The notes below the pieces were generated by a model. The model had not been told where the DNA came from. It worked only from the letters and a program-made list of their open reading frames with translations, and did no database searches. A program made the position numbers and the translations under genes. Shown here piece by piece: positions 859-55,405 of a DNA stretch of 64,000 bases (its first letter is position 1; each line of letters begins with the position of its first letter). Source of the stretch: Candidatus Tanganyikabacteria bacterium (GTDB taxonomy: Bacteria > Cyanobacteriota > Sericytochromatia > S15B-MN24 > VGJW01); assembly GCA_016867265.1 (NCBI GenBank), contig VGJW01000002.1:1-64000 (forward strand), given 5' to 3'.

Positions 859-2202
859 ATGAAGCGCGTTTACGTGGATGCGACGGACCGTCTGGAGCGG
901 GCCGACCGCGGGGCCTATGCGCCCGGGGACTGGGCGAGGCTTGCCGGTGTGGCAGCCCGCATGCGGGAGGGTTGGCCCCGCGAGGAGCTTTTGTCTCCTG
1001 CGGCCTTGCCACCCACGCGCCCCGTGCAGCCGGCCGAGGAGCGCGCCGTCCGCGCCATCGTGGGCCGCTGTGCGGATCGTGCGGTCCTGGCGTGGCCGGA
1101 AGCCATGGCGCCTTGGGGGGTCGGTGAGCTGTTGCTGCGGGAGTGGCTTGTCCGTGACCCCGGCCGCATCCTGGTCCTGGCGGCTCCGGGCAGGCTCGAG
1201 GCGTGGCGGCGTGTCCTTGAGGGCGTAGGTACCCGCGTCCATTGCATCGCCCAAGGCTCCCCCCTGCCGGATGAAGCGTTCACGGGTTGGCTGGTGGACC
1301 GTTGCGATCGGGGTCTTGCCGTGCTGCCACGACCGGATGGCGTCCGGCGTGTCGTCCTGCTGGCTCCCCGCCCGTGGCCGGAGGAAGTCGGCCTCGCTGC
1401 CCTTGCCGATTGGCTAGGCAAGCGTGACGTGCCGCCGGTGGCGCTCGAACAGGCCATGGTGGTCGAGGAGGCTGCACCGCCCGTCACGCCTGCAACAATC
1501 GAGGGACGTCTGGTTGCCGTTCGACCCTCGGTTGCCGAGGAGGCCCTGCTGGCCGAGGTTGCCGCCATTTCGGACTGGCTGGTCGAAACGGGACGCCTCG
1601 ATGCGGTCGAGACCGCCGGGCCGTGGGTTCGCTTGCTGGCGACGGCCGAGGCATGGCCCGGTGCCATGCCTCAGGTTGCCGTCCATCTGCTCGATCGGGA
1701 GCATGAACCGCTGGTCAAGGCGCGCCTGCTCTCCCTGCTGCGCGCGGGGCTCGAGGCCTGGGAGGCGGGGCCCTCTCTCGAGGGGGCGTTGCAGGCCCTC
1801 GTGGCCACCAGTCATCAGAGGGTCCGCCTTGCGGTCGCTACCTTGGCGACGGGCGAAGCCCTTGCGGCCCGCATGCCGGCGGGCGTTGACGTGGTGGTCG
1901 ATGGCGAGGTCGGTCCGGACGGCGCGCATGACCTCTGGCTGCATGCCGAGCCCGTCATGCACCCCTTGGACATGGCCCTTCGTCACGCGTGCGGTACCCG
2001 CCACCATCATCTGGTCCTCGCCGGTGGGCGCTTGCATCGGTGGCTGGCTGCCCTCGATGTCCGTGGCCTGCTCGATGCGTCCGGTCCGACGTGGGCCGAG
2101 TGGGTCGCGAGGTTGCCAGTCGCGATGGGACCGCGCGATATCTGGCGCAATCCCGAACAGGCCGCGAGCCGTCTTGCCGCCATCCGCGACCAACTGGGCT
2201 GA
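859..2202 (+). CDS. Degenerate SNF2/RapA-like helicase-fold protein without ATPase motifs
   Basis: The protein has 447 residues and is probably cytoplasmic. Residues 57-130 follow the order of a SNF2 helicase N-terminal lobe: an accessory segment (PAEERAVRAIV), a strand (RAVLA), then GELLLREWL and the motif-Ia-like ILVLAAPGRLEAW. Where the family has its Walker A loop (DEVGLGKT), this protein has WPEAMAPWG at about 79-87. Where DEAH is expected there is LLAPRPWPEEV. It should therefore not hydrolyse ATP by the usual mechanism. The downstream gene begins 14 bases later, which suggests co-expression and a joint role. The ATG is placed by the -10-like hexamer just upstream. The helicase relationship rests on by-eye alignment, and an unrelated fold remains possible. 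Confidence 0.5.
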   Translation: MKRVYVDATDRLERADRGAYAPGDWARLAGVAARMREGWPREELLSPAALPPTRPVQPAEERAVRAIVGRCADRAVLAWPEAMAPWGVGELLLREWLVRDPGRILVLAAPGRLEAWRRVLEGVGTRVHCIAQGSPLPDEAFTGWLVDRCDRGLAVLPRPDGVRRVVLLAPRPWPEEVGLAALADWLGKRDVPPVALEQAMVVEEAAPPVTPATIEGRLVAVRPSVAEEALLAEVAAISDWLVETGRLDAVETAGPWVRLLATAEAWPGAMPQVAVHLLDREHEPLVKARLLSLLRAGLEAWEAGPSLEGALQALVATSHQRVRLAVATLATGEALAARMPAGVDVVVDGEVGPDGAHDLWLHAEPVMHPLDMALRHACGTRHHHLVLAGGRLHRWLAALDVRGLLDASGPTWAEWVARLPVAMGPRDIWRNPEQAASRLAAIRDQLG

Positions 2203-2216
2203 GGTTGGGCCCGAAC

Positions 2217-4178
2217 ATGCAGGATCCGACACTTCGTACCTTCACGCTTGACTTCTACCGGCGCCAAGGCGCCGATGCCTCCCCCCTCGACACCCAGCGG
2301 CGACGCTGGGAGGTTCGCCTCGGTGACCGGCGCTTCGACATCTCGTTCGCTGCCGGTGAGGACGCCGAGGCCATTGTCCCCGGTTCGCCGCGGCTCAAGG
2401 AGATCTTGGCAGAGTGCGAGGAGCGGGGGGCCGTCTCCCATCGTCACGTCGTCGTCGCGCCCATCGCCGATCCGGCCGCGCTGCTGCTGGGCGTGGCCCC
2501 CGAGGGCTGGATGCTTTCCCGCGTGCGGCTCGAGCGCGTCCTTACCCGACGTGTCGTCGCCTTTTCCCATCGGGTTGCCTATGGTGCCGGTGTCCTGCCC
2601 CACCCCATCGAGGAGACCCACGTCGATATCCTGGATCCCGTCACGGGCATGGCCTGTCCAGCCCTCGTCGATGCGTTGTCAGGTATCCAGACCCTGCCGA
2701 CCGATCCTCCGCGCGATCTGCCGGCGCTTGGTCCGCTGCATGCACGTGCGCTGGCCCTTGTCGACGCCCGGACCAGCGTCCGGGGGGAGGCACTCGAGCG
2801 ACAGCTGGGTGGTCGGCGCACCGAGTCCGTGACCCGCATCCGTCGCCACTATGGATCGCTTCGCGAGGATGCCCGGCAGCGGGAAATCCGCACCCTCGAG
2901 GAGAATTTGGCCAAGGTCCTGGGGGCCATCCGGGGCGCGTTGCCGGGCGATCTGGCCGACCTGAGCCGGGAGGGTGCCGAGCTGGCACGCCGCCTCGATG
3001 CGGCCCGCAAGGGGCAGACCGTTGCCCTGACGTCGCTGGCGCGTCTCGAGGAGGAGGCCGTCCAAGCCGAGGAGACAGCGCACGAGGTCACGCTGACCAC
3101 CGAACTCGTGGCCCTCCACGTCATCAGCTTCGATGAAGTGACTTACGTGGCAAGCTTCGTGCGGCCGGCCGAGGACGGCTTGCCGTCGGTCGCGTCTCCC
3201 GAGGTCCGGCTGGGCTACGTGCCGTTGACGCGTCAGATCCTGATGCCCGACTGCGGTGTCTGTGGCGAGGTCGTGGACGACCCCGTGATGACGGGTTCGC
3301 TGACTCTGGCCTGTCGGACCTGCGTCCGGGCTTGCCCATCCTGCAGCCGTCCTTGCGAGGAGCAGGGACAGGTCGTCACCGCTTGCGGCACGTGTGCCGT
3401 TGCGCTGTGTCCCGCTTGTGACGCGACTTGTGGCGATTGCCAGGCGCATGTCTGTGCGTCGGACCGTGCTGCGTGCGGATCGTGCGGTGCTTCGGTGTGT
3501 GCGGATTGTCGCGGCGTCTGTGCCGAGGATGGTGCGGTCGTCTGTACCGGCTGTCGCGTCGAGGCTGGCGGTGGCTTTGCAAGCCAGGCGCATCTGGGGA
3601 CCTGCTCGGGTTGCGGGGTCCAGGGCCTTGCCTCCGCCATGGCGCCGTGTGGCGTGTCCGGCGACATGTACTGCGCCGCCTGCCTTGGCAGTTGTGCGGC
3701 GTGTGGCGTCAGGGTGGCGCGTCACCTGATGCTCGAGGGCGTCGAGGGGGGCTATTGTCCAGATCATGCGGGCACCTGCCGCACCTGCTTCGAGGTCGTG
3801 CGTGCCGATGACCTTGGCACCTGCGCTTCGTGTGGTCGCCACCAGTGCGGCAGCCATCGTCCCGAATGTGTCTCGTGCGGCCTGCCTGCGTGCTCGGAAT
3901 GCGCGACGGCGGACCGTTGCGGGGTCTGCAGTCGTCTCGAGCCCCTGTCGGTCTCGGACCCCCGGGCGAAGATGCTGGCCCGCGACCTGAGCTTGCGTGG
4001 CGTCCGGAACCTGTTGCTGGCTGAAGTCGGCGGGGCCCGCGTCATCGAGTGGCAAGGCAGCCTGGGGCGCTGGGGACGCTTGTCTTGGGACGCCTCGGGA
4101 CGTCAGGTCGCGGCCTTCCGCTACGGACCCGTCACCGCCATGATGCAGGAGGTCATGGCCCAGTTCCGGCCTGCTTGA
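2217..4178 (+). CDS. Coiled-coil protein with about 40 cysteines in a zinc-ribbon-like array
   Basis: The protein has 653 residues. Residues 1-165 form a compact alpha/beta domain with a GSPRL motif at 56-60 that recalls Bacillus YqhG, which is encoded beside a SNF2 helicase. Residues 190-300 are charged and helical, and likely a coiled coil. Residues 346-571 hold about 40 cysteines, mostly CxxC pairs with nearby His, as in stacked zinc ribbons or treble clefs. Residues 575-653 form a small closing domain. No enzyme motif is visible. The gene follows the degenerate SNF2-like gene by 14 bases, and its tail overlaps the convergent gene on the other strand by 26 bases. A nucleic-acid or protein scaffold is likely, but this is inference. 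Upstream in-frame ATGs lie inside the preceding gene, so ATG 2217 is preferred. Confidence 0.6.
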   Translation: MQDPTLRTFTLDFYRRQGADASPLDTQRRRWEVRLGDRRFDISFAAGEDAEAIVPGSPRLKEILAECEERGAVSHRHVVVAPIADPAALLLGVAPEGWMLSRVRLERVLTRRVVAFSHRVAYGAGVLPHPIEETHVDILDPVTGMACPALVDALSGIQTLPTDPPRDLPALGPLHARALALVDARTSVRGEALERQLGGRRTESVTRIRRHYGSLREDARQREIRTLEENLAKVLGAIRGALPGDLADLSREGAELARRLDAARKGQTVALTSLARLEEEAVQAEETAHEVTLTTELVALHVISFDEVTYVASFVRPAEDGLPSVASPEVRLGYVPLTRQILMPDCGVCGEVVDDPVMTGSLTLACRTCVRACPSCSRPCEEQGQVVTACGTCAVALCPACDATCGDCQAHVCASDRAACGSCGASVCADCRGVCAEDGAVVCTGCRVEAGGGFASQAHLGTCSGCGVQGLASAMAPCGVSGDMYCAACLGSCAACGVRVARHLMLEGVEGGYCPDHAGTCRTCFEVVRADDLGTCASCGRHQCGSHRPECVSCGLPACSECATADRCGVCSRLEPLSVSDPRAKMLARDLSLRGVRNLLLAEVGGARVIEWQGSLGRWGRLSWDASGRQVAAFRYGPVTAMMQEVMAQFRPA

Positions 4179-7100
4179 GCAGGGCCTCGACTTTCCGCAA
4201 CTCCTGACCTGCACGAATCCCCTCGAAGAGGTCCCTCGCGCCAAGCAGCAGGCTATCGGCCTCATGGACCTCGCCTGCCCGGGCAGCGACCCATGCAGCG
4301 TGAACCATGGCGCGCCCCATCTCCAAGGCATGGCCGTGGCTCCGCAAGGTCTCGATGGAGGCCCGCATCAATCGCAAGGCCTCGTCGGTGCTTTCATCCA
4401 TCATCAGAAGGCGGGCGCGAAGGACGTCGATCGAGGCTGTCTCGGCCTGCTGGCCCGTGGCCACGGCCAACTCGCGCGCCTTGTCCAGAACCGCTCGCGC
4501 CCTTCCGGCACGGCCTGCAAGCAGTTGTGCGAGGCCAAGGCCCCGCAGGACTTCCGCCGCGTAGGTGCCGGCCCCGGCGCGTTCGAGGAGGCCTGCCGAG
4601 GCCTCGAAGAACGGAATGGCAGCGTCGGCTTCGTCACGGGCCAGATGGACCTGGCCAAGGAAGTTGGTGCAGGCGGCGCGGCCGAGCGGATTGCCCAGGG
4701 CCTCGTACAGGGCATCGGCGCCGCGCAGGGCTTCCTCGGCCTCGTCGAGCAAGCCGAGCTTCAGGCGCAGGCCCCCCAGGTTGTTGAGGATATGGGCGCC
4801 ACGTGACCGGTCGCCGATGCGTGAACAGATCGCGTGGGCCCTTGCATAGGCGTCCGCTGCGGCCGCCCAGTCTCCGGACATCTCCAGGGCCATCGCAAGG
4901 TTCGTAAGGCCGACGACGCGGCGGGGAACGTCCTTGGCCTCGTCCACCAGCAGGAGCATGCGCTGGTAGTAGCCGATCGCCTCGTTGCCCCGTCGGCGGC
5001 TGGCGAGGTTGCCGAGGATGTTCATGATGTCGGCGACGACGAGGGGATGCCGGTCCGGACGGACGAGGGCAAGGGCTGCCTGGCATTGGCCCTCGGCATC
5101 GGCCAGAGCCCCCGTTGTCAGCCACTGCTCGGCCAAGGTGGCCCGCAGCGTCGCTTCCTCGACGGGATCCCGGGTCGCCGCGATGCGCTCCAGGCAGCGC
5201 GCGATCGCCTTGTGGGTCTCGCCCTGGCGGATCAACGCCCGGATCAGCCCGGCCTCCCACGCACCTCGGTCGAGATGGTCCGGCACCAGGTTGATGGCCG
5301 TCTCCAGATGTTCCTGCGCCAGGGAAACCTCGCCCGTCGTGGTCTCGACCGCGGCGAGGTGGGCAAGCAGGGAAGCCCTGTCGGCTGTCCAGGCCGGGTT
5401 CGTGCCCCGGCGATCCAGATGCTCGAGGGCCTGGTGATAAAGCCGGATGGCCTCCTCGTTGCCGAAGGCGTGACGGGCTTCGTCCCCGGCCTCGGCGGCA
5501 TAACGGGCCGCGGGTTCGTCCTGTTCGGACCGGGCCATGTGGTGGGCGAGCGTCCGCGCACGTCCGGGCGTCCCGGGCAGGTCCCGACGCTCGATGGCGA
5601 GGGCGGCCCGTTCGTGCCAGTCCCTGCGGGTCGCCAGCAGCAAGTTTTCGTAGGCGACCTCCTGGGCCACGACCTGGTTGAAGGCGTGGCGCCCGTCCGG
5701 CATCCGGTCGAGGAAGCCGAGTCGGACCAGATCATCGAGGTCCGCCTCGACCTCGCGGTCGAGTATGGTCCGCAGCAGCGTGTCCTCGACGGTCCTGCCC
5801 AGCACCGATGCGACCTGCAAGGTCTGTCGCTGGGCGGATTCGAGCTGGTCGAGGCGCGCTGCGAGTGCGCCTTGGACACTGCCGGGCAGTCTGAATTCCG
5901 TACGGCCTTCGGCCACGGACCACGTTGCGCCCGTACGGATCAGGACGCCGGCCTCCTGGACCGTCCGGACCAACTCCTTGAGGTAGAACGGGTTGCCCTC
6001 GGCACGCGCGAGGATTTCATCGAGCAGTTGCCTTACGGGTATGCCGAGGGACTCGGGCGAAGCCTGGAGCAGCGTGGTCGCGAGGGCTTCGGCCTCCTGA
6101 GCCACGAGGGGGGCCAGCGGCATCGGTTCCAGCAGGCCATGCTGGGTCACGGCCTTGGGCAAGGCTTCCGGATCGCGGCTGGCGAGGACCAGCAGCAACG
6201 GCACGTGGCCTCCCTCCCGGCCCAGCCGGCTGATGAGGCCGCCCAGCCATTCGAGGGATGGTGCGTCGGCCCACTGGAGGTCGTCGAGGACGAGAATGGT
6301 CGGCGTCTCCCTCGCCATGGATGTCAGCAGGTCGTCGAGGACAACGAAACTTGCTGAGCGGCGCTGCTGGGGGGGCAAGCTGGCGACCTCGGGATGGTTC
6401 ACGGGAAGCCCCAGCAGGTGGGCGAGAGATGATGTGCTGCGGGGGACGTTGTAGGGCAGCCATCGGGCCACGAGGGTCTCGAGTGCGCCCAAGGCCGCAT
6501 CCGGCCTCCCCGGCGGCTCGCCGAGCAGGGGTTGGAGGACGGAGATGGCGAGGGCGTGGGCCCTGTCGCGGTCGAAGGATACGCCTCGGCCCCAGACCAC
6601 GAGGGCCCCTTCCTGACGAAGGCGCCGGGTCTCGTGTCGGATGAGCAGCGACTTGCCGGTCCCGACCGCCCCTCCGACCAGCAGGCCCGCAGGTCGTCCC
6701 GCACGGGCTGCGCGCCAGGCCGTGGCCAGTCGTTCGCGTTCCTTGGCGCGGCCGATCAGGTCCGTCGCCTGGTCCGTCATCGTCGGGCCCATGCCCTCGG
6801 CCTGGCCGAGAATCAGCCAGGCCTGAACGGTCTGGTCGCGCCCCCCGGCCTGCACCGCGTCGCGGGCTTCAGCCGTGAAGTGGCCCTGCACCTGCTGCCA
6901 GGTGTCCGCAGAGACGAGGACGCCGCCGGGCGGTGCGGCTGCCTCCATCCTCGACGCGATGGCCACCGTCTCGCCCGTCACCGTGTAGTCGGATCTCTGG
7001 GTCCCCCCCACGCTGCCGGCGACCACGAGGCCCGTATGCAGGCCTACCCGGACCCTGAGGCGGATGCCCGTCTGTTGTTCCAGATCCGCTGCGAAGGCCT

Positions 7101-7584
7101 GAGCTGCTTCCTGCATGGCCCATCCGGCCATCACGCCCCGTAGCGGATCGTCCTCGTGGGAAATCGGGGCCCCGAAGAGGGCCATGATGGCATCGCCGAT
7201 GTACTTGTCGACCACGCCGCCATAGCGGTAGATGGGTTCGGTCAGGACCTGGAAGAAGCGGTTGACGATCCCGGCGACGGCCTCGGGATCCATCTTCTCG
7301 GACATCGCCGTGAAGCCGGAGACATCCGTGAACAGGACCGTGACGACACGGCGGTCCGATTGCTGCAGCTCCGTCGTGGGCGTGGGCCGGGCAAGCGGGG
7401 CACCGGGCGCCGTCGGGGCAGCCTGCAGGGCGCCGGCTTGCCGGGCTCCGCATCGGGTGCAGAAGGCGTGGTCCGGCGCGATGGGCGCGTTGCACGACGT
7501 GCAGGGCAGGCCCACGGCCACGCCACAACCCTTGCAGTAGCGGGCGTGGGCCGGATTCTGCGTGTTGCAGGTCGGACAACCCAA
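4153..7584 (-). CDS. Zinc-ribbon / class III nucleotide cyclase / AAA ATPase / TPR signalling protein
   Basis: The protein has 1143 residues. The N-terminus carries two zinc ribbons (CPTC..CKGC and CTSC..CTRC, residues 3-45). Residues 78-255 are a class III adenylate/guanylate cyclase domain with metal-binding aspartates at D87 (VLFTDVSGFT) and D131 (GDAIMALFG). Residues 275-650 are an AAA/STAND-type ATPase with Walker A GGAVGTGKS (K311) and Walker B ILVLDDLQWAD. The rest is a TPR-like helical repeat region. This layout is common among large bacterial cyclase-regulators in which the TPRs sense a partner. The product (cAMP or cGMP) cannot be read from the sequence with certainty. The start is TTG, 7 bases after the stop of the upstream gene, which indicates an operon. 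It converges with the cysteine-array gene. Confidence 0.88.
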   Translation of the reverse strand: MGCPTCNTQNPAHARYCKGCGVAVGLPCTSCNAPIAPDHAFCTRCGARQAGALQAAPTAPGAPLARPTPTTELQQSDRRVVTVLFTDVSGFTAMSEKMDPEAVAGIVNRFFQVLTEPIYRYGGVVDKYIGDAIMALFGAPISHEDDPLRGVMAGWAMQEAAQAFAADLEQQTGIRLRVRVGLHTGLVVAGSVGGTQRSDYTVTGETVAIASRMEAAAPPGGVLVSADTWQQVQGHFTAEARDAVQAGGRDQTVQAWLILGQAEGMGPTMTDQATDLIGRAKERERLATAWRAARAGRPAGLLVGGAVGTGKSLLIRHETRRLRQEGALVVWGRGVSFDRDRAHALAISVLQPLLGEPPGRPDAALGALETLVARWLPYNVPRSTSSLAHLLGLPVNHPEVASLPPQQRRSASFVVLDDLLTSMARETPTILVLDDLQWADAPSLEWLGGLISRLGREGGHVPLLLVLASRDPEALPKAVTQHGLLEPMPLAPLVAQEAEALATTLLQASPESLGIPVRQLLDEILARAEGNPFYLKELVRTVQEAGVLIRTGATWSVAEGRTEFRLPGSVQGALAARLDQLESAQRQTLQVASVLGRTVEDTLLRTILDREVEADLDDLVRLGFLDRMPDGRHAFNQVVAQEVAYENLLLATRRDWHERAALAIERRDLPGTPGRARTLAHHMARSEQDEPAARYAAEAGDEARHAFGNEEAIRLYHQALEHLDRRGTNPAWTADRASLLAHLAAVETTTGEVSLAQEHLETAINLVPDHLDRGAWEAGLIRALIRQGETHKAIARCLERIAATRDPVEEATLRATLAEQWLTTGALADAEGQCQAALALVRPDRHPLVVADIMNILGNLASRRRGNEAIGYYQRMLLLVDEAKDVPRRVVGLTNLAMALEMSGDWAAAADAYARAHAICSRIGDRSRGAHILNNLGGLRLKLGLLDEAEEALRGADALYEALGNPLGRAACTNFLGQVHLARDEADAAIPFFEASAGLLERAGAGTYAAEVLRGLGLAQLLAGRAGRARAVLDKARELAVATGQQAETASIDVLRARLLMMDESTDEALRLMRASIETLRSHGHALEMGRAMVHAAWVAARAGEVHEADSLLLGARDLFEGIRAGQELRKVEALLKQAGTGP

Positions 7585-46173: not shown

Positions 46174-47645
46174 TGGCGCTTGTCACGATCAACGGTCAGA
46201 CCCTCGAGGTGCCAGACGGCACCAATGTGGTTGAGGCAGCGGCCCTCGCCGGGGTCGACATTCCTCATTACTGCTACCATCCCGGCTTGCCCATCGACGG
46301 CAACTGCCGGATGTGTCTCGTCGAGGTGGAGGGGGCACGCGGCCCCCAGATCGCTTGCAACACCTTGCTGCGCACGACGCGGAACAAGGAGGGCGATGAG
46401 GTCCCGGCTGCCGTCGTCAAGACCGAGACGGACGCTGTCCGGCAGATGCGGCAGGGGGTCATGGAGTTCTTGCTGCTCAACCACCCGATCGATTGCCCTG
46501 TCTGCGATCAGGCTGGTGAGTGCGGCTTGCAGGACTACTACATGGAGCACGGCAAGCACGATCATCGGTCCGTTGTGCCCAAGGTCGAAAAGGTCAAGGC
46601 GCAGCCCATCGGGCCCAATGTAATCCTCGACCAGGAGCGCTGCATCCTTTGTTCCCGCTGCGTACGCTTCACCCGCGAGGTGACGAAGACCCATGAGCTC
46701 GTGATTGCCGGTCGTGGCGACAAGAGCCGGATCGAAGTCTTCCCGGGGACCGAACTGGACAATGACTATGCCACCAATGTTGTCGACCTTTGTCCCGTCG
46801 GTGCCTTGACCAGCAGGGACTTCCGTTTCAAGAAGCGCGTCTGGTTCCTGAAGACGGCTTCGTCTATCTGTACGGGCTGTTCCCGGGGATGCAACGTCCA
46901 CCTGGATCATGATGGTGGCAAGGCCTACCGGTATCGTCCCCGCGCCAACGAGGCCGTCAATCGCTGGTGGATGTGCGACCGCGGTCGCTTCACCTACAAG
47001 GCCATCAACGAAGGCAGGCAGCGCGACGCCAAGGTCGGCGGCCAGGTCGTTCCCTTCGCCAAGGCGACGCAGGAACTGCGCCAGTTGCTGGGCTCCGGCA
47101 AGGTCGGCTTCGTGGTCGGGGCGCATGCTTCGCTCGAAGACATGGCTGTAGTCAAGTGGCTGTCAGCCGCCCTCGGTGCCCGTGCGTGGGGCTTGGACTG
47201 GTCGGAGCAGGGCAAGGAGGACGACTTCCTCATGAAGGCCGACCTTACGCCCAATCGTCAGGGCTTTGCCCTCATCGGCCTCGATTCGGATGAGACGTCG
47301 TTCCGCGAGGCCCTGCCCGGGCTGACCGCCCTCGTGACGGTGGCCGTCGCACTCCCTTCGGGACTGGTACACGCCCGGACGGCAGCACTTGTCACGCACG
47401 CCGCCGCGGCGCCGGAATCTGCTGCAGTGGTGCTGCCGATAGCGATGCATGCCGAGCGGCATGCGGCCTATGCCAACGTCGACGGCATCATCCAGCACGT
47501 CGAGCCGGCCTTCGAGCCCGCTGGCGATGCACTGCCTGCCAGTGCCCTGCTCGCCCTCCAGGGGGCCGGCATGGGGTATCCGCTGCCGTTTGACCGTGAA
47601 GGTGTCTGGAAGCGCCTCGATGCGGAACGGGGGGTGACGGCGTGA
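46173..47645 (+). CDS. nuoG: NADH-quinone oxidoreductase subunit G, compact form
   Basis: The 490-residue protein is much shorter than Escherichia coli NuoG (about 900). The iron-sulfur half is complete: N1b (C34, C45, C48, C62), N5 (H104, C108, C111, C117), N4 (C157, C160, C163, C207) and also a set spaced as for cluster N7 (C233, C236, C240, C268). The molybdopterin-oxidoreductase-like half is reduced to about 200 residues but keeps the closing pattern LPIAMHAERHAAYANVDG. The gene overlaps nuoF by one base and nuoH by four, so the short length is not a frameshift at either end. Confidence 0.9.
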   Translation: MALVTINGQTLEVPDGTNVVEAAALAGVDIPHYCYHPGLPIDGNCRMCLVEVEGARGPQIACNTLLRTTRNKEGDEVPAAVVKTETDAVRQMRQGVMEFLLLNHPIDCPVCDQAGECGLQDYYMEHGKHDHRSVVPKVEKVKAQPIGPNVILDQERCILCSRCVRFTREVTKTHELVIAGRGDKSRIEVFPGTELDNDYATNVVDLCPVGALTSRDFRFKKRVWFLKTASSICTGCSRGCNVHLDHDGGKAYRYRPRANEAVNRWWMCDRGRFTYKAINEGRQRDAKVGGQVVPFAKATQELRQLLGSGKVGFVVGAHASLEDMAVVKWLSAALGARAWGLDWSEQGKEDDFLMKADLTPNRQGFALIGLDSDETSFREALPGLTALVTVAVALPSGLVHARTAALVTHAAAAPESAAVVLPIAMHAERHAAYANVDGIIQHVEPAFEPAGDALPASALLALQGAGMGYPLPFDREGVWKRLDAERGVTA

Positions 47646-49093
47646 CCTGGCTGATGGAGTCCGCCGACTACCTGGCGGTCGTGCTGCGTCTGGTCCTGTC
47701 GGCAGCCATCCTGCTGACGGTGATGCCCCTGACGATTTATCTCGAGCGGAAGGGTTCGGCCTTCATTCAGGGGCGTCCGGGGCCGAACCGGGCTGCCCTC
47801 TTCGGCGTGTTCCGCATGGGCGGCTTGGCGCACGTGCTGGCCGACGTCATCAAGCTCGTCTCGAAGGAGGACATCATCCCGGCCGGGGTCAACCGCTTCT
47901 ACTTCAAGCTGGCCCCGATCATCGTGGCGTTCATCCCGCTGACCACGTTCATGATCGTGCCCATCGCAGACGTCATCCGGCTTTCGGACACGTTCGCGAC
48001 GCCGATGGCGACCTTGCAGCTGGACGGAGGCCTGCTGTGGTTCTTCGCGATGACCTCGCTTTCCGTCTACGGCGTGGTCTTCGCAGGGTGGGCCTCGAAC
48101 AGCAAGTTCAGCCTGTTGGGGGGTATCCGCAGCACGGCCCAGTTGCTCAGCTACGAGATTCCGATGGCCCTTGCCGTCGTGGCTATGATGCTGACCTACG
48201 GCACCGTTCAGCCCAATGAGATGGTTCGTGCCCAAGGCGAGCTTCTCTGGGGCTTCCTGCCGCAGTGGGGCATCTTCCTGCAGCCGCTCGGATTCATCCT
48301 CTTCATCACGTGCGCCTTTGCCGAGATCAACCGCGTGCCCTTCGACCTGGCCGAAGGCGAGGCGGAGCTCGTGGCGGGCTACCACACCGAGTATTCCGGC
48401 ATGCGCTTCGGCCTGTTCTTCATGGCCGAGTACATGGCTCTGGTGACGTCGGGTGCGCTCACCGTGACGATGTTCCTCGGGGGCTGGCAACTGCCTTGGC
48501 TGCCGACCGAGCGGCTCGTTGCCGACGCGGGCACCCTGATGCCTTGGTTCATCGGGGGGGCCGGTCTGCTTCTTGGCGCGGCGTCCGGGCGCCTGATTCG
48601 TCATTATCAGGAGTACACGCGCGGCAGATGGGGCGACGCCCGCGATTTCGAGCCATTGGTGTTCTCGGCCTTGTTCGCTCTGGGGTTCATCGCCCATGGC
48701 GCGGCTGCCGGTTGGGTCTGGGGAGTCGTGAAGGCGGGCGAGGCCCTGCCGGGTTGGCTGCCACCCCTGTTTGCCGCAGGGGTCCAGATTTCGGTTTTTA
48801 CGGCCAAGCTCCTCTTCCTTTGCTGGTGCTTCGTGTGGGTCCGTTGGACCCTGCCCCGCTTCCGCTATGACCAGGTCATGGACCTGGGTTGGAAGAGCCT
48901 CCTGCCGCTTTCCCTGTTCAACCTGTTGCTGACGGGTGTGTTGATGCTGCAGCCGTGGGGCCGAGAGGTCCTGCCCGTGGCGCCCGTCGTGACGCTGGGG
49001 TTGATGTGGGTCTGGAAGCGTTATCTGGTGCCGTCGCAGGCGCGCGTGCCCGCCACGAGCCGCTTGGTCGTCGGGGAGGAAGCCTCCGCATGA
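47642..49093 (+). CDS. nuoH: NADH-quinone oxidoreductase subunit H, with extra internal segment
   Basis: The 483-residue membrane subunit couples quinone reduction to proton pumping. It carries the NuoH signatures YLERKGSAFIQGRPGPNR, AFAEINRVPFDLAEGEAELV with YHTEYSGMRFG, and VWVRWTLPRFRYDQVMDLGW. It is longer than the usual 320-430 residues because about 95 residues (roughly 287-383), including one or two extra hydrophobic stretches, lie between the GGWQLPW segment and the last helices. The start is GTG overlapping the nuoG stop. Confidence 0.93.
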   Translation: MTWLMESADYLAVVLRLVLSAAILLTVMPLTIYLERKGSAFIQGRPGPNRAALFGVFRMGGLAHVLADVIKLVSKEDIIPAGVNRFYFKLAPIIVAFIPLTTFMIVPIADVIRLSDTFATPMATLQLDGGLLWFFAMTSLSVYGVVFAGWASNSKFSLLGGIRSTAQLLSYEIPMALAVVAMMLTYGTVQPNEMVRAQGELLWGFLPQWGIFLQPLGFILFITCAFAEINRVPFDLAEGEAELVAGYHTEYSGMRFGLFFMAEYMALVTSGALTVTMFLGGWQLPWLPTERLVADAGTLMPWFIGGAGLLLGAASGRLIRHYQEYTRGRWGDARDFEPLVFSALFALGFIAHGAAAGWVWGVVKAGEALPGWLPPLFAAGVQISVFTAKLLFLCWCFVWVRWTLPRFRYDQVMDLGWKSLLPLSLFNLLLTGVLMLQPWGREVLPVAPVVTLGLMWVWKRYLVPSQARVPATSRLVVGEEASA

Positions 49094-49584
49094 AGGTCGA
49101 TCGCGTCAAGCCCGGTGAGGGCATCGAGTCCGCCTACCTCTGGCATATCGTCAAGGGCCTAGGCGTGACGGTCGGGCACACCGTCCGACAGCTGGTAGGG
49201 AGCCAGCCCGTGCAGACCAAGGAGTATCCCGAGGTCCGCAAGGAGATGCCCGAGGGCTACAGGGGCAAGCATCGCTTGCTGCAGAAGGAGTCGGGCGATC
49301 CCAAGTGCACGGCTTGCATGATGTGTGCGACCGTGTGTCCGGCAGCCTGCATCCATATCGAGGCCGGCGAGCATCCTGACCCCAAGGTCGAGAAGTTTCC
49401 CGTTTCCTTCGACATCGACTTGCTCAAGTGCGTGTTCTGCGGGATGTGCGTCGAGGCGTGCCCGGTCGACGCCATCCGCATGGATTCCGGTGTCTATACC
49501 TTTGCCGATTTCCAGCGTGACGATTTCGTCGTCCACAAGGATGAGCTGCTGCGGACGCCTTCGCAGTGGTCCGATCCGGTGTAA
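49090..49584 (+). CDS. nuoI: NADH-quinone oxidoreductase subunit I
   Basis: The 164-residue ferredoxin-type subunit carries clusters N6a and N6b, with ligands C73, C76, C79 and C83 (CTACMMCATVCP) and C114, C117, C120 and C124 (CVFCGMCVEACP). It links NuoG to NuoB in the peripheral arm. Its ATG overlaps the nuoH stop by four bases. Confidence 0.95.
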   Translation: MKVDRVKPGEGIESAYLWHIVKGLGVTVGHTVRQLVGSQPVQTKEYPEVRKEMPEGYRGKHRLLQKESGDPKCTACMMCATVCPAACIHIEAGEHPDPKVEKFPVSFDIDLLKCVFCGMCVEACPVDAIRMDSGVYTFADFQRDDFVVHKDELLRTPSQWSDPV

Positions 49585-49600
49585 CCTGAACGGACCGACC

Positions 49601-50104
49601 ATGCTTGACGCCATTCTTTTCGCTGTCCTTTCTGCCGTGGCTGTCGCGGGTGCCCTGGCGATGGTCAGTCGCCGGCATCCCCTGGGTTCGGCCCTTGCGC
49701 TGATTGTCGTGATGATCGCGCTCGCCGGCCTGTATGCGTTGCTGGCAGCCCCCTTGGTCGCCATCCTGCAGATCCTTGTCTACGGCGGGGCCATTCTCGC
49801 CCTTATTGTCTTCGTCATCATGCTGCTCAATGTCCGGGAGGAAGACCTGGCCCACGAGGACGGCCTGAGGGGGCGTCTCGGCATGGGCCTGACGGTCGCG
49901 GGCCTTCTTTTCATGGGCTTGGCCGCAGGTATTCACGCCATCCCGGCCGATCCATTCGCGCCGCCTCCGCCAGGCTTCGGCGGTATCGTGGCCGTCGGGC
50001 GGGGCCTGTTCCGTGATTACGCGGTACCGTTCGAAGTCGTGTCCCTTCTGCTGACGGTTGCGGTAGTTTCCGCGGTCGGCATGGCCAAGCGGAGGCTGGA
50101 CTGA
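49601..50104 (+). CDS. nuoJ: NADH-quinone oxidoreductase subunit J
   Basis: The 167-residue membrane subunit has five hydrophobic segments and the NuoJ pattern ILVYGGAILALIVFVIMLLNV, which includes the pi-bulge helix involved in coupling. The ATG follows nuoI by 16 bases without a strong ribosome binding site. Its stop overlaps the nuoK start by one base. Confidence 0.92.
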   Translation: MLDAILFAVLSAVAVAGALAMVSRRHPLGSALALIVVMIALAGLYALLAAPLVAILQILVYGGAILALIVFVIMLLNVREEDLAHEDGLRGRLGMGLTVAGLLFMGLAAGIHAIPADPFAPPPPGFGGIVAVGRGLFRDYAVPFEVVSLLLTVAVVSAVGMAKRRLD

Positions 50105-50403
50105 TGGCCCTGCACGCACCTTTGCTGGTTGCCGCCGCGCTCTTCTCCATCGGGGTGGGTGGTTTCGTGGCCCGGCGCAATGTCTTTGCGTTGCTCATGT
50201 GCATCGAGTTGATGCTCAATGCCGTCAACCTCGTTTTCGTGACCTTCAGCCGCCAGTGGTTGTCCGTCGAGGGCCATGTCACGGTCTTGCTGGTCGTCGC
50301 ATTGGCGGCGGCCGAGGCAGCCGTGGCCCTCGCCATCGTCATCATGCTCTTCCGGCATCGGGAGACGCTCGATGTCGACGTGTTTGCCTCGATGAAGGAG
50401 TGA
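50104..50403 (+). CDS. nuoK: NADH-quinone oxidoreductase subunit K
   Basis: The 99-residue protein has three helices and the NuoK pattern: NVFALLMCIELMLNAVNLVF with the conserved membrane glutamate, then VALAAAEAAVALAIV with the second one. It belongs to the proton-transfer chain of the membrane arm. Confidence 0.95.
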   Translation: MALHAPLLVAAALFSIGVGGFVARRNVFALLMCIELMLNAVNLVFVTFSRQWLSVEGHVTVLLVVALAAAEAAVALAIVIMLFRHRETLDVDVFASMKE

Positions 50404-50410
50404 TCCCGGC

Positions 50411-52378
50411 GTGTCCCATGTTGCCTTGCTCGCCTGGATTCTCTTTGCCCCGTTGGCCGCAGCTGCGCTGAACGGCCTTCTGGCCCTGCGCTCAGCCCGC
50501 GTGCCCGTTCCCGTCGAGGGGCATCATCTTCGTCCCATGGACCGCCTTGCGGCAGGGATTGGAGTCGCCGGCCCCTTGGCGGCGGCTGTGGCTGCCTGGA
50601 GCCTGGGCTTCGCCTTTCTGGCCCGAGATCGCTCCCTGCGCCTGACCGAGCTTGATCTGGGCACGTGGTTCTCGATGGGGCAGGCGCATGTCACGTGGCT
50701 GTTCCGGGTCGATCCCCTCTCGCTCGTGATGGTGCTTGTGGTGACGACCGTGGGGACGCTCATCCACCTCTATTCCGTGGGCTACATGGCGGGTGATGCC
50801 GGCTTTCCGCGCTTCCTCACGTGGCTCAATCTCTTCACGTTCGCGATGCTGGTGCTGGTCACGGCGCGGGATCTCGTCGTGCTTTTCCTGGGCTGGGAGG
50901 GGGTCGGCGTCTGCTCGTACCTGCTCATCGGCTACTGGTTCAGTGACGCGGCCAAGGCCGCAGCCGGTCTCAAGGCCTTTGTCGTCAACCGCATCGGGGA
51001 TCTGGGCCTGCTGCTCGGCATGTTCCTGCTGTTCTGGAGCATGGCGCCCGGTGGTCAGGCATCGCTTGACATCGATCTGCTCTCGGCCCACGTGACCAAG
51101 TTGTCCGTGCCGCTAGCGACCGCTGCGGCGGTGTTGCTTTTTGTCGGGGCCATGGGCAAGTCGGCACAGGTGCCGCTCCACATCTGGCTCCCGGACGCGA
51201 TGGCCGGCCCTACGCCCGTCTCGGCCCTGATCCACGCCGCGACCATGGTCACGGCGGGCGTCTACATGGTGGCCCGGATGCATCCGCTGTATCACCACGC
51301 ACCCGCCGCACTGGCCTTCATCGGCAGCCTCGGAGCCTTGACGGCTCTGGTTGCGGCCACGGTCGCCTGCACACAGACCAACATCAAGCGTGTCATTGCG
51401 TGGTCGACCGTCTCCCAGCTGGGCTACATGTTCATGGGCCTGGGGGCCGGTGCGTTCTCGGCCGGCATCTACCATCTCTTCACCCACGCTTTCTTCAAGG
51501 CGCTTTTCTTCCTCTCGGCCGGCGCCGTCATCCACGCCTTGCACGGCGAGGAAGAGCTGGGCCGGATGGGGGGCCTCTGGTCGAAGCTGCGTGTGACCGG
51601 CCCGGCCTTCGTTCTGGCGGCGGCTGCCAATGCCGGCCTGCCCCCCTTGTCCGGCTTCGTGAGCAAGGATGCCATCCTCGTGGCGACGTGGAACGCGCAT
51701 CATCCCGTGTGGTTTGCCGTGGGTCTGCTCACGGCCGGCCTGACAGCCTTCTACTCATTCCGCCTCGTCGCGCTGGTCCTGGCCGGTCCCCCGAGAGATG
51801 CCCATCTGGCTGAACACGCCCATGAGGCGGGTTGGGCCATGACCTTGCCGCTCGTCCTGCTGGCCGTCGGCGCCGTCGGGGCCGGTGTCCTCGAGTGGCC
51901 CCATGAGCTCGGGGGGACGCTGTGGTTCAGCGCTTGGCTCGAGCCCGTCTTCTACCCCAGCCTCGACCACGGTGTTCATGCCAATGCGGTCGTCGATATC
52001 ATCCTAACGGTCGGTTCGGTGGCGGTCGTCGCCACGGGGGCCGCAATCGGCTTCAGTCTGCATGCGCGGGACGGTGCTTCCACGGGGGCTCCGCTCACGG
52101 GCCTGCAAGGCCTGTGGGCCACGGTGAAGCGCGGCTGGCATGTCGATGAGGTCCTCGAGCGGGTGGTCGTGCGGCCGGTCGTCTTTTCCTCGCGTGCTGC
52201 CGCTCCTTTCCTGGACTTCCTGCTTGGCTGGGGAGCTCGGGGTTTCGTGCAGGGCCTCGCCCTCGCGGGCCGTGGCCTGGCCGTGGCCCAGTCGGGTCTT
52301 GCGCGCCACTACGCGATGGTGATGTTGGGTGGCCTCGTGGCCCTGGTGGCCTGGGCTGTCCTGTCCGGAGGTCGTTGA
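50411..52378 (+). CDS. nuoL: NADH-quinone oxidoreductase subunit L
   Basis: The 655-residue antiporter-like subunit has about 16 membrane segments. Signatures are FLGWEGVGVCSYLLIGYW, GKSAQVPLHIWLPDAMAGPTP-type text (KSAQVPLHIWLPDAM) with VSALIHAATMVTAGVYM, and FFKALFFLSAGAVIHAL. The C-terminal amphipathic helix and last anchor are present. The start is GTG, 7 bases after nuoK. Confidence 0.95.
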   Translation: MSHVALLAWILFAPLAAAALNGLLALRSARVPVPVEGHHLRPMDRLAAGIGVAGPLAAAVAAWSLGFAFLARDRSLRLTELDLGTWFSMGQAHVTWLFRVDPLSLVMVLVVTTVGTLIHLYSVGYMAGDAGFPRFLTWLNLFTFAMLVLVTARDLVVLFLGWEGVGVCSYLLIGYWFSDAAKAAAGLKAFVVNRIGDLGLLLGMFLLFWSMAPGGQASLDIDLLSAHVTKLSVPLATAAAVLLFVGAMGKSAQVPLHIWLPDAMAGPTPVSALIHAATMVTAGVYMVARMHPLYHHAPAALAFIGSLGALTALVAATVACTQTNIKRVIAWSTVSQLGYMFMGLGAGAFSAGIYHLFTHAFFKALFFLSAGAVIHALHGEEELGRMGGLWSKLRVTGPAFVLAAAANAGLPPLSGFVSKDAILVATWNAHHPVWFAVGLLTAGLTAFYSFRLVALVLAGPPRDAHLAEHAHEAGWAMTLPLVLLAVGAVGAGVLEWPHELGGTLWFSAWLEPVFYPSLDHGVHANAVVDIILTVGSVAVVATGAAIGFSLHARDGASTGAPLTGLQGLWATVKRGWHVDEVLERVVVRPVVFSSRAAAPFLDFLLGWGARGFVQGLALAGRGLAVAQSGLARHYAMVMLGGLVALVAWAVLSGGR

Positions 52379-52379
52379 C

Positions 52380-53888
52380 GTGGGCGAGACCCTTTCCCTG
52401 CCCGTCTGGATGCTCTTGCTGCCATTCATCGCGGCCGCGCTTGCCGCCTTGCTGCCGGCGCGCCTTGCGCGGGCCGTCGCTTGCCTGGCCATGGTTGGCC
52501 AACTTGGTCTCGGCGTGATGCTGCTGCGTACCTTCCGCGACCAGCCTGACCTTCAGGGCGTTGCCTCGTGGCCAATGCTGGGCATCTTCGGAAGCACCCT
52601 CCGTCTGGGCGTCGACGGCTTGTCGGTCTTCCTGCTGGTTGCAGGTGCCGCCCTGGGCCTGCTGGCCGTGTTGGTGTCCGGAGCCAAAAGGCCGCCCGCT
52701 TTCCATGCATGGTTGCTGTTGTTCGTCGGGACGATGGCCGGGGTATTGGTTGTCCAGGACCTGCTCGTGTTCTACGTCTTCTGGGAGCTGATGCTGCTTC
52801 CGGCCCTGGTTCTCATCCTGCTGTGGGGGGACGCCGATCGTCGCAAGGCGACGGTGCCTTTCGTCGTGGTGACGCTGGTCGGTTCGCTGGCCATGCTGGC
52901 GGTAATCTTCGCCATGGGAGCTGAGGCGCACGCACGGTTCGGGGCATGGAATTTCGACTTGGATGCTCTGGCTGGCGTCGTTTCCACGTGGAGTGCCAGC
53001 GCACGTTGCTGGGCTTTTGCCGGCCTTGTCCTTGCCTTTGCCGTCAAGATCCCGCTCTTCCCGTTGCACTACTGGCTGCCTGCTGCCTACACGTCGGCGC
53101 CCCTGCCTGCGGTCATCCTGTTGTCCGGCCTGATGGCCAAGTTGGGCACCTACGGTGTCCTGCGGGTCGCCATGCCACTGTTTCCCGAGCAGGCGGTGGC
53201 CTGGGCACCCTGGCTGGCCGGACTTGCCGTCGTCGGGATTCTGCACGGCGCCGTTCTGGCCCTCGGTGCCCGTGATGTGCGTACGGTTCTTGCTTACTCG
53301 AGCTTCAGCCATCTCGGCTGGATCGCCCTGGGCATCTTCAGTCTGACGGCCGAGGGCCTTGGCGGTGCGATGCTCCAGCAGGTCGGCCATGCGTTGGTTA
53401 CGGCCACCCTGTTCATCCTGGCCGCCTGGGCCAGCGAGCGCCAAGGGGCGACGCACTTGTCCCGCTTCGGGGGCATGGCCGCGACACATCCCTGGTTGGC
53501 AGCGGCTCTGGTGTTCGCTGCCATGGCTTCCGCGGGCCTGCCTGGTCTCAACGGCTTCGTCGGTGAGTTCCTGATTCTGCTCGGTGCCTGGGGCCTCTCG
53601 CCTTGGGTTGCCTTCGCCGGTGGACTCGGCGTGGTGCTTGGCGCAGCGTACCTGCTCTGGTTGCTGCAGCGGATGCTTTACGGGCCGGCCGTCCAGCCTG
53701 CGCCCACGGGCCCGGATCTCGGGGTCCGCGAGTTGGCCGTGGTGTTGCCCTTGCTCGTGATGATGGTGCTCTTCGGTGTGCGACCGGGCTTGCTCATCGA
53801 TCGCATGAAGCCTTGGTCCGACGCCTATGTCCTTCGCTTCCACAAGGCTGTTCCACAGGCTGCCTTGCCGACTGGGGCTCATCCATGA
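52380..53888 (+). CDS. nuoM: NADH-quinone oxidoreductase subunit M
   Basis: The 502-residue antiporter-like subunit shows FYVFWELMLLPALVLILLWG, KIPLFPLHYWLPAAYTSAPLP and AYSSFSHLGWIALGIFSLT, all hallmarks of NuoM, with lysines and glutamates of the proton path in place. The GTG at 52380 follows the nuoL stop by one base. It ends overlapping nuoN by four bases. Confidence 0.94.
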   Translation: MGETLSLPVWMLLLPFIAAALAALLPARLARAVACLAMVGQLGLGVMLLRTFRDQPDLQGVASWPMLGIFGSTLRLGVDGLSVFLLVAGAALGLLAVLVSGAKRPPAFHAWLLLFVGTMAGVLVVQDLLVFYVFWELMLLPALVLILLWGDADRRKATVPFVVVTLVGSLAMLAVIFAMGAEAHARFGAWNFDLDALAGVVSTWSASARCWAFAGLVLAFAVKIPLFPLHYWLPAAYTSAPLPAVILLSGLMAKLGTYGVLRVAMPLFPEQAVAWAPWLAGLAVVGILHGAVLALGARDVRTVLAYSSFSHLGWIALGIFSLTAEGLGGAMLQQVGHALVTATLFILAAWASERQGATHLSRFGGMAATHPWLAAALVFAAMASAGLPGLNGFVGEFLILLGAWGLSPWVAFAGGLGVVLGAAYLLWLLQRMLYGPAVQPAPTGPDLGVRELAVVLPLLVMMVLFGVRPGLLIDRMKPWSDAYVLRFHKAVPQAALPTGAHP

Positions 53889-55405
53889 ACACGCAACTTG
53901 CGACTTACCTGCCTCTGGCGCCGTTGGCCCTCCTCGTGCTTGGTGCCCTGCTCGCCCTGCTGCTCGTGCCTTCCGTCCGTCACGGGGATCCCGACCGGAC
54001 CATGGCTTGGCACGCCGGCATGGTCAACCTGAGTGCGCTGGTCCTCTCCGTGACGCTCTGGGTTCGACCGGTCATCGGCATGGAGCCGGTCGGTGCGACG
54101 GGTGCCTTCAGGGCCACCTACATGGGTGGCGCCTTGGTGGTCGACAGTTTGTCCCTCCTGTTGGTGGCGTTGGCGTCGGCCGGTGCCCTGCTGGTTCTGC
54201 CCGGTCTGATGGCGGCGGCGGATCGCGGTTCGTTCGCGCACGGCGAACTTCATGCGCTTTTGTTGTTTGCGGTTGCGGGCTCCGGTGTCGTGGCATCGGC
54301 CGGTGACGTCTTCACCGGCTTCCTGGGCCTCGAGATCGTGGCCTTGTCCGTCTATGGGCTTGTCGGACTGGACCGTTCCCGTCCGGGGGCCCACGAAGCC
54401 GTGCTCAAGTATCTGTTGCTGGGTGCCTTTGCCTCCGCCATCCTTTTGCTGGGCATGGCCTTCCTCTTCGGCGCCACCGGCAGCCTTTCTCTAGGTCGGT
54501 TGCAGGCTGCGGCGGTCCACCTCCCACCGGCGCGTCACGGCCTCGTGATGCTGGGCTTGGCGGCCATGGTGGCAGGCCTGGCCTTCAAGGTGGCCGCAGC
54601 GCCGTTCCACATGTGGTCTGCCGACGTCTACGAGGGTGCCGTGACTCCGCTTACGGGTTTCATGGCGACGGTGGTCAAGGTGACGGCCTTCGTCTTCGGC
54701 TTGCGCCTCCTCGTGGCCGGCCTCGCCGGTGTCGGGACCGACTGGCAGCCCCTGCTGGCCGCCTTGGCTGCGGCGTCGATGGTCGTCGGTAACCTCATGG
54801 CGATGAACCAGCGGAAGCCCAAGCGGATGATGGCGTTCTCAAGTGTGGTCCATACGGGCTACATGCTCGTGGGGTTGGCTGCTGCTGCGGGGTCTACGGG
54901 TACGGATGCCGTCCAGGCACTGGTGGTCTATCTCGTGGCCTATCTGCTGACCAACCTTGCAGCCTTTGGTTGCCTCGATGTTCTCGAGCGCAACGGTGGG
55001 CTCGATGGCGCGATGCAGCGCAATCCCGGGCTTGCCACGGCCTTTGTCGTCGCCCTGCTTTCGCTGGTGGGCTTCCCGATGACGGCCGGCTTCCTCGGCA
55101 AGTACATGGTGTTTTCCGTCGCCTTTGGTGCAGGCTTGGGCTGGTTGGGCGTCCTCGCGATCCTGAGCAGCATGGTGTCACTCGCGTATTACATGCCCTT
55201 GCTGTTCCGCGTCCTGTCCGGTGCGTTGCCGTCACCCGCTGCCCCTCCGTCGCTGGCAACCGGTGAGCGGGTGGCCCTTGCCGTGTCATCCGGCCTCGTC
55301 CTCGTGCTGGGCGCCGGGATTCTGGCCGTCGCAGGCTGGATGGTGCCGGGCGCCCATTGGGTTGCCCAGTGGGCCTTGCAGTCCGGAGCGGTTCTTCTGC
55401 CTTGA
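53885..55405 (+). CDS. nuoN: NADH-quinone oxidoreductase subunit N
   Basis: The 506-residue antiporter-like subunit is the last nuo gene. Signatures are FLGLEIVALSVYGLVGLDR, LKYLLLGAFASAILLLGMAF, FKVAAAPFHMWSADVYEGA and LSLVGFPMTAGFLGKY. It has about 14 helices. The stop codon lies inside the -35 element of the downstream tRNA promoter. Confidence 0.94.
   Translation: MNTQLATYLPLAPLALLVLGALLALLLVPSVRHGDPDRTMAWHAGMVNLSALVLSVTLWVRPVIGMEPVGATGAFRATYMGGALVVDSLSLLLVALASAGALLVLPGLMAAADRGSFAHGELHALLLFAVAGSGVVASAGDVFTGFLGLEIVALSVYGLVGLDRSRPGAHEAVLKYLLLGAFASAILLLGMAFLFGATGSLSLGRLQAAAVHLPPARHGLVMLGLAAMVAGLAFKVAAAPFHMWSADVYEGAVTPLTGFMATVVKVTAFVFGLRLLVAGLAGVGTDWQPLLAALAAASMVVGNLMAMNQRKPKRMMAFSSVVHTGYMLVGLAAAAGSTGTDAVQALVVYLVAYLLTNLAAFGCLDVLERNGGLDGAMQRNPGLATAFVVALLSLVGFPMTAGFLGKYMVFSVAFGAGLGWLGVLAILSSMVSLAYYMPLLFRVLSGALPSPAAPPSLATGERVALAVSSGLVLVLGAGILAVAGWMVPGAHWVAQWALQSGAVLLP

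Follow-up and report, generated by a model that had tools for sequence, protein, structure and literature searches.

The question raised by this locus is what a SNF2-like protein without its ATPase motifs does directly upstream of a cysteine-rich partner. Both genes lie near the beginning of the window, i.e. the whole 64,000-nucleotide stretch that was analysed; they are open, on the same strand and separated by 14 bases. Their reading frames, each starting with ATG, are those given by the first-pass annotation, and the starts are backed by relatives with the N-terminus MKRVYVD... for gene 1 and by relatives beginning M..PTLRT.T.. for the partner. The features of the pair are the following.

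859-2202, plus strand: gene 1, a degenerate SNF2 protein of 447 aa (phmmer chain, alignment, pairing with the partner, purifying selection in congeners).
1093-1119, plus strand: WPEAMAPWG, residues 79-87 of gene 1, at the place of DEVGLGKTI (alignments with intact relatives).
2217-4178, plus strand: gene 2, the partner protein of 653 aa, with a YqhG/RapA-C-like domain, a long coiled coil, a cysteine array and a C-terminal tail (homologues in 10 genomes of the class).
2217-2858, plus strand: residues 1-214 of the partner, forming its N-terminal domain; by profile a homologue of YqhG and, via a combined profile, very probably of E. coli RapA at about residues 713-924 (hhalign, with controls by shuffling, reversal and real families).
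2730-3080, plus strand: predicted long helices of the partner, residues 172-288, probably a coiled coil (AlphaFold2 model, mean pLDDT 79).
3252-3929, plus strand: cysteine array of the partner at residues 346-571, with 17 CxxC motifs that probably form zinc ribbons (motif count against shuffles; conserved in relatives).

Scans of Pfam and NCBIfam returned no match for gene 1 or gene 2. Using phmmer, gene 1 matched a less decayed relative in G002, a genome of the same family (E 2.7e-20), and this G002 copy matched intact SNF2 helicases (E 4e-19); gene 1 also reached one intact SNF2 helicase directly (E 1.2e-8). The chain through G002 together with the direct match puts the SNF2 ancestry of gene 1 beyond chance. 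Whole-genome searches with gene 1 recovered relatives in the family, and weaker ones in the order and class. The AlphaFold model of gene 1 has a mean pLDDT of 53.7, better in residues 10-150 and of low confidence in the C-terminal half, and its top Foldseek matches are all SNF2 proteins (ISW1, Chd1, SMARCAD1 and RapA), at E 7e-3 or worse and from an input alignment itself made of SNF2 proteins. The SNF2 origin proposed by the first-pass annotation is in agreement with the phmmer chain, with the alignment through intermediates and with these structural matches, and by its sequence gene 1 is a descendant of a SNF2 helicase core of the YqhH/RapA type. In G005-G010, the position of gene 1 is taken by an intact SNF2 helicase, about 575-600 aa long, in which DEVGLGKT, DEAH and QRIGRxHRxGQ are all present; judged by position, gene 1 is the orthologue of the intact YqhH/RapA-type helicase in other families of the class. 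The case for orthology is built on the gene pair and the partner and not on the SNF2 tree, where the window's family sits on very long branches whose placement the tree does not give.

The alignment with intact relatives placed WPEAMAPWG at the Walker A loop, with the proline at residue 85 opposite the Walker A lysine. The lysine is replaced by proline in 4 of 4 family genomes with a copy (G000, which is the genome of the window, G001, G002 and G004), GLGKT being substituted by AMAPW in the window, GLDPV in G001 and ALEPI in G002 and G004. In the family copies DEAH reads DGAH or DAAH or is missing, and the window copy lacks that stretch altogether. Motif VI, QRIGRxHRxGQ, is absent from G000, G001 and G002; it is not covered by the G004 copy, which like that of G001 is partial and split over contigs. 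Every copy of gene 1 in the family is degenerate, and the same gene pair presents a graded series, from the window copy, the shortest and most decayed, through G001 and G002-G004 to the intact motors of G005-G010. An assembly error was rejected as the source of the motif loss, the change being common to several genomes of different genera. Dead motors were seen only in the window's family; in every completely sequenced pair examined from other lineages the motor is intact. The replaced Walker A loop and the missing DEAH, both read from the sequence by the first-pass annotation, are borne out; the loss covers Walker A and Walker B as well as motif VI, and Walker A, which that annotation had suggested looking for in relatives, is kept by them except in the window's own family. 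The best explanation of these alignments is that gene 1 would no longer be capable of normal ATP binding or hydrolysis.

G000 encodes two other SNF2 proteins, of 922 and 1053 aa. On a general SNF2 model they score about 246 bits, compared to 107-130 for YqhH-type proteins, and because of this far higher score they are assigned to another type; no intact YqhH-type gene was found in G000. G001 has a 1052-aa SNF2 protein that matches the intact model better (208 bits).

Of the 10 genomes of the order, 9 have the partner, the remaining one being 64% complete; at the level of the class, G010 has it too. The G005 copy is read in separate frames. Its N-terminal domain is alpha/beta, and the coiled-coil stretch overlaps the end of the YqhG/RapA-C-like match. 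The cysteine array noticed at first reading is far outside expectation: the partner has 17 CxxC motifs, while 2000 shuffled sequences averaged 2.6 and never had more than 9. The array probably forms zinc-binding ribbons. Foldseek with the partner model gave no convincing solved match, and RapA was not in the top matches.

YqhG has no function assigned to it in Pfam. The Pfam model PF11079 (YqhG) gave no match in the window's class, and the link to YqhG, first suggested from the GSPRL region, therefore rests on profile-profile comparison. With YqhG proteins taken from genes adjoining yqhH-type genes in Bacillales (PF11079 confirmed for L038 and L053), hhalign aligned the partner N-terminal domain at E 3.6e-6 and a score of 50.6, the GSPRL stretch being in register, compared to at most 22.8 in 60 column shuffles and 16.3 upon reversal. 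The likeness holds, and as judged from these profiles the domain is a remote homologue of YqhG. The SNF2-adjacent partners of Pseudomonadota/Acidobacteriota/Latescibacterota, of Actinomycetota and of KSB3 fall in the same superfamily, with E values down to 8e-11 between groups.

The profile of the intact motors has RapA structures as its best solved relatives (E about 1e-68), and the partner also leads to RapA. A combined partner/YqhG profile (A5) compared by hhalign with the RapA C-terminus, residues 713 onward of the E. coli protein and 17 relatives, gave a probability of 96, E 3.5e-9 and a score of 67.7 over 194 co-linear columns. Sixty shuffles reached at most 18.1, and unrelated real families at most 26.7 against A5 and 19.8 against the RapA C-terminus; an independently made alignment scored 68.7, and the score was 56.7 without Actinomycetota and 65.6 without YqhG. 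Significance was reached only with the 17 RapA relatives and the combined profile: YqhG alone and the window's class alone (E 0.014) were not significant against the RapA C-terminus, other single groups were at most marginal, and the single E. coli RapA sequence was not significant against 3 of 4 partner groups. PF12137 found no match among the A5 members, and a PDB search with the partner profile, a weaker profile-against-sequence comparison, gave coiled-coil noise only, with RapA not listed. Because the single groups taken alone are not significant or marginal, we regard homology of the partner N-terminal domain to the RapA C-terminal region as very probable and not as certain. This link is new in the present analysis, the first-pass annotation having missed RapA, and a literature search, with subscription papers outside its scope, returned no paper linking YqhG with RapA.

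The N-terminal domain of RapA is its main RNA-polymerase contact, and neither YqhH-type proteins nor gene 1 have this domain, as judged for gene 1 by the start position and the absence of a Pfam match. Residue D744 of RapA, which contacts the zinc-binding domain of the RNA polymerase beta-prime subunit (PMC8501970), falls inside the region matched by the partner profile. Cryo-EM work has led to the proposal that RapA recycles RNA polymerase passively, by clamp closing (PMC8666675).

The partner is encoded directly downstream of a YqhH-type SNF2 gene, and a search for the pair in related genomes, proposed by the first-pass annotation, showed that the two genes travel together. In searches anchored on the partner, a SNF2 gene turned up beside it within the window's order, and also in other Cyanobacteriota and in Pseudomonadota, where the motor is intact. 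SNF2 proteins from genomes assigned to the window's phylum reach 92% identity to Tolypothrix, which points to Cyanobacteriota as that phylum. Twelve new loci of Cyanobacteriota and Pseudomonadota from a partner-only search were read: in 11 of them the partner has an intact SNF2 gene as its neighbour or close by, and in the remaining locus a partly covered SNF2 gene lies a few kilobases off. The earlier idea of a two-gene module in which the motor has been remodelled is thus upheld by SNF2 descent, YqhG homology and gene co-occurrence. Of the two outcomes named by that annotation as counter-evidence, a first protein without a helicase-like fold and genes that do not occur together in relatives, neither was seen, although the structural model behind the fold is a weak one. 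Both genomes of family f4 (loci L183 in G008:C46 and L184 in G007:C63) have a second, intact SNF2-partner pair besides the orthologue of the window's pair.

The gene directly upstream of the pair, at 1-790, encodes a CheR-type methyltransferase containing TPR repeats and is truncated at the window edge; G004 has a similar gene close to its own pair (L010:2031-3407). On the minus strand, 4153-7584 encodes a large protein with N-terminal zinc-ribbon-like cysteines and, by reading of the sequence, a nucleotide cyclase, an ATPase and a repeat domain; a similar gene is found downstream of the pair in G001 (L029:5105-8998). Farther along, at about 47600-55400, genes resembling respiratory complex I subunits coincide with a strongly negative AT skew (down to -0.45), probably the ordinary coding bias of membrane proteins.

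The reading that we favour, with fair confidence, is that the pair is a split RapA-like module, of which the window's family keeps a motor-dead version as a structural subunit acting passively on RNA polymerase. In most bacteria with the module, gene 1 would encode a YqhH-type SNF2 translocase with its motor intact, and gene 2 would supply the equivalent of the RapA C-terminal region as a protein of its own. An ancestor of the window's family would have lost the Walker A lysine and DEAH, and gene 1 would have been retained as a structural subunit holding the partner. The complex may use the partner, the RapA counterpart of which contacts the beta-prime zinc-binding domain, to dock on RNA polymerase, and may occupy or clamp the polymerase passively instead of pulling on DNA. 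Since RapA is proposed to act passively, a module composed of its two parts could still do so in the absence of a motor. For the window pair, a physical complex, RNA-polymerase binding, zinc binding and passive, ATP-free action are all what we infer from these relationships.

A wider view, which we hold more tentatively, is that a widespread module of two genes has RapA as its fused form, that YqhG and its relatives are the detached RapA C-terminal region, and that one family runs a motor-free, purely passive RNA-polymerase complex. YqhG as a detached RapA C-terminal region would acquire a testable role, and its position beside YqhH would be explained. The motor-dead family would be a natural experiment on the extent to which RapA depends on ATP in its work on RNA polymerase, a question of current interest.

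The same dead-motor pair might have a target other than RNA polymerase, gene 1 serving as a scaffold for the zinc-ribbon partner on DNA or in a repair or stress response. In B. thuringiensis, YqhH has ATPase activity and gives protection from UV, and yqhH affects UV survival (PMC10054049); the zinc array is a candidate binder of nucleic acid or protein, and for this class of pair RNA-polymerase binding is a prediction. RapA is nevertheless the nearest characterised relative of both halves, and we consider the non-polymerase target rather unlikely.

Much less probable is that gene 1 is a decaying remnant and that only the partner matters. Strong divergence of the motor and the short, decayed window copy would fit such an end, but the frames are open where covered in the four genomes and the tight pairing is kept. 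Between G002 and G004, the one genome pair compared, both of one genus, dN/dS is 0.22 for the N-terminal 176 codons of gene 1 (bootstrap 0.13-0.37) and 0.19 for 422 codons of the partner (bootstrap 0.13-0.27). Gene 1 is kept under purifying selection and is not a dying gene; the pseudogene reading is rejected on the open frames and this dN/dS. Gene 1 shares 23-35% identity with intact copies, compared to 55-78% among the intact copies across families. For the partner N-terminal domain, identity is 26-40% between the family and other lineages and 26-36% among other lineages with families crossed. From these identities, the change of pace appears confined to the motor, the partner having no such shift. 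Returning to the split RapA-like module, the selection on gene 1 suggests that the dead motor is now a scaffold.

Membership of a DISARM- or BREX-like antiphage defence system, in which the SNF2 proteins are similar to the intact relatives, is the least credible reading and was rejected, as the strong match of one intact relative to the DrmD and BrxHI models falls on the shared helicase core, a PADLOC scan of gene 1 and the partner gave no match and the neighbouring genes looked at are not defence genes.

Compared with known systems, the SNF2-partner pairs of Pseudomonadota, Acidobacteriota, Latescibacterota, Actinomycetota and KSB3 resemble the window in the adjacency of partner and SNF2 gene, in profile homology and in C-terminal CxxC motifs; unlike the window, their motor is intact, and most of their partners have far fewer CxxC motifs. 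The exception is KSB3, whose partner (L036:6592-8400) has an independent long array of 23 CxxC beside an intact SNF2 gene. Three Actinomycetota partners of 650-730 aa (L088, L105 and L111) have a different long C-terminal extension in place of the cysteine array.

In Bacillus, YqhH-YqhG shows the arrangement of the window pair, SNF2 gene then partner with the genes nearly touching, and YqhG is remotely homologous to the N-terminal domain of the window partner. YqhG is without the cysteine array of the window partner, and YqhH has all motifs and is an active ATPase (the B. thuringiensis protein, PMC10054049), whereas gene 1 of the window is a dead motor. B. subtilis YqhH is called HepA/RapA and is listed as interacting with RNA polymerase (PMC7385302).

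E. coli RapA (HepA), the RNA polymerase recycling ATPase, provides the best solved relative of the intact motors in its motor core, and its C-terminal region matches the combined partner profile, motor and C-terminal region following in the same order as the two genes. RapA unites an N-terminal domain for RNA-polymerase binding and an active motor in a single chain; the window pair consists of two genes, lacks that binding domain, and combines a dead motor with an added cysteine array.
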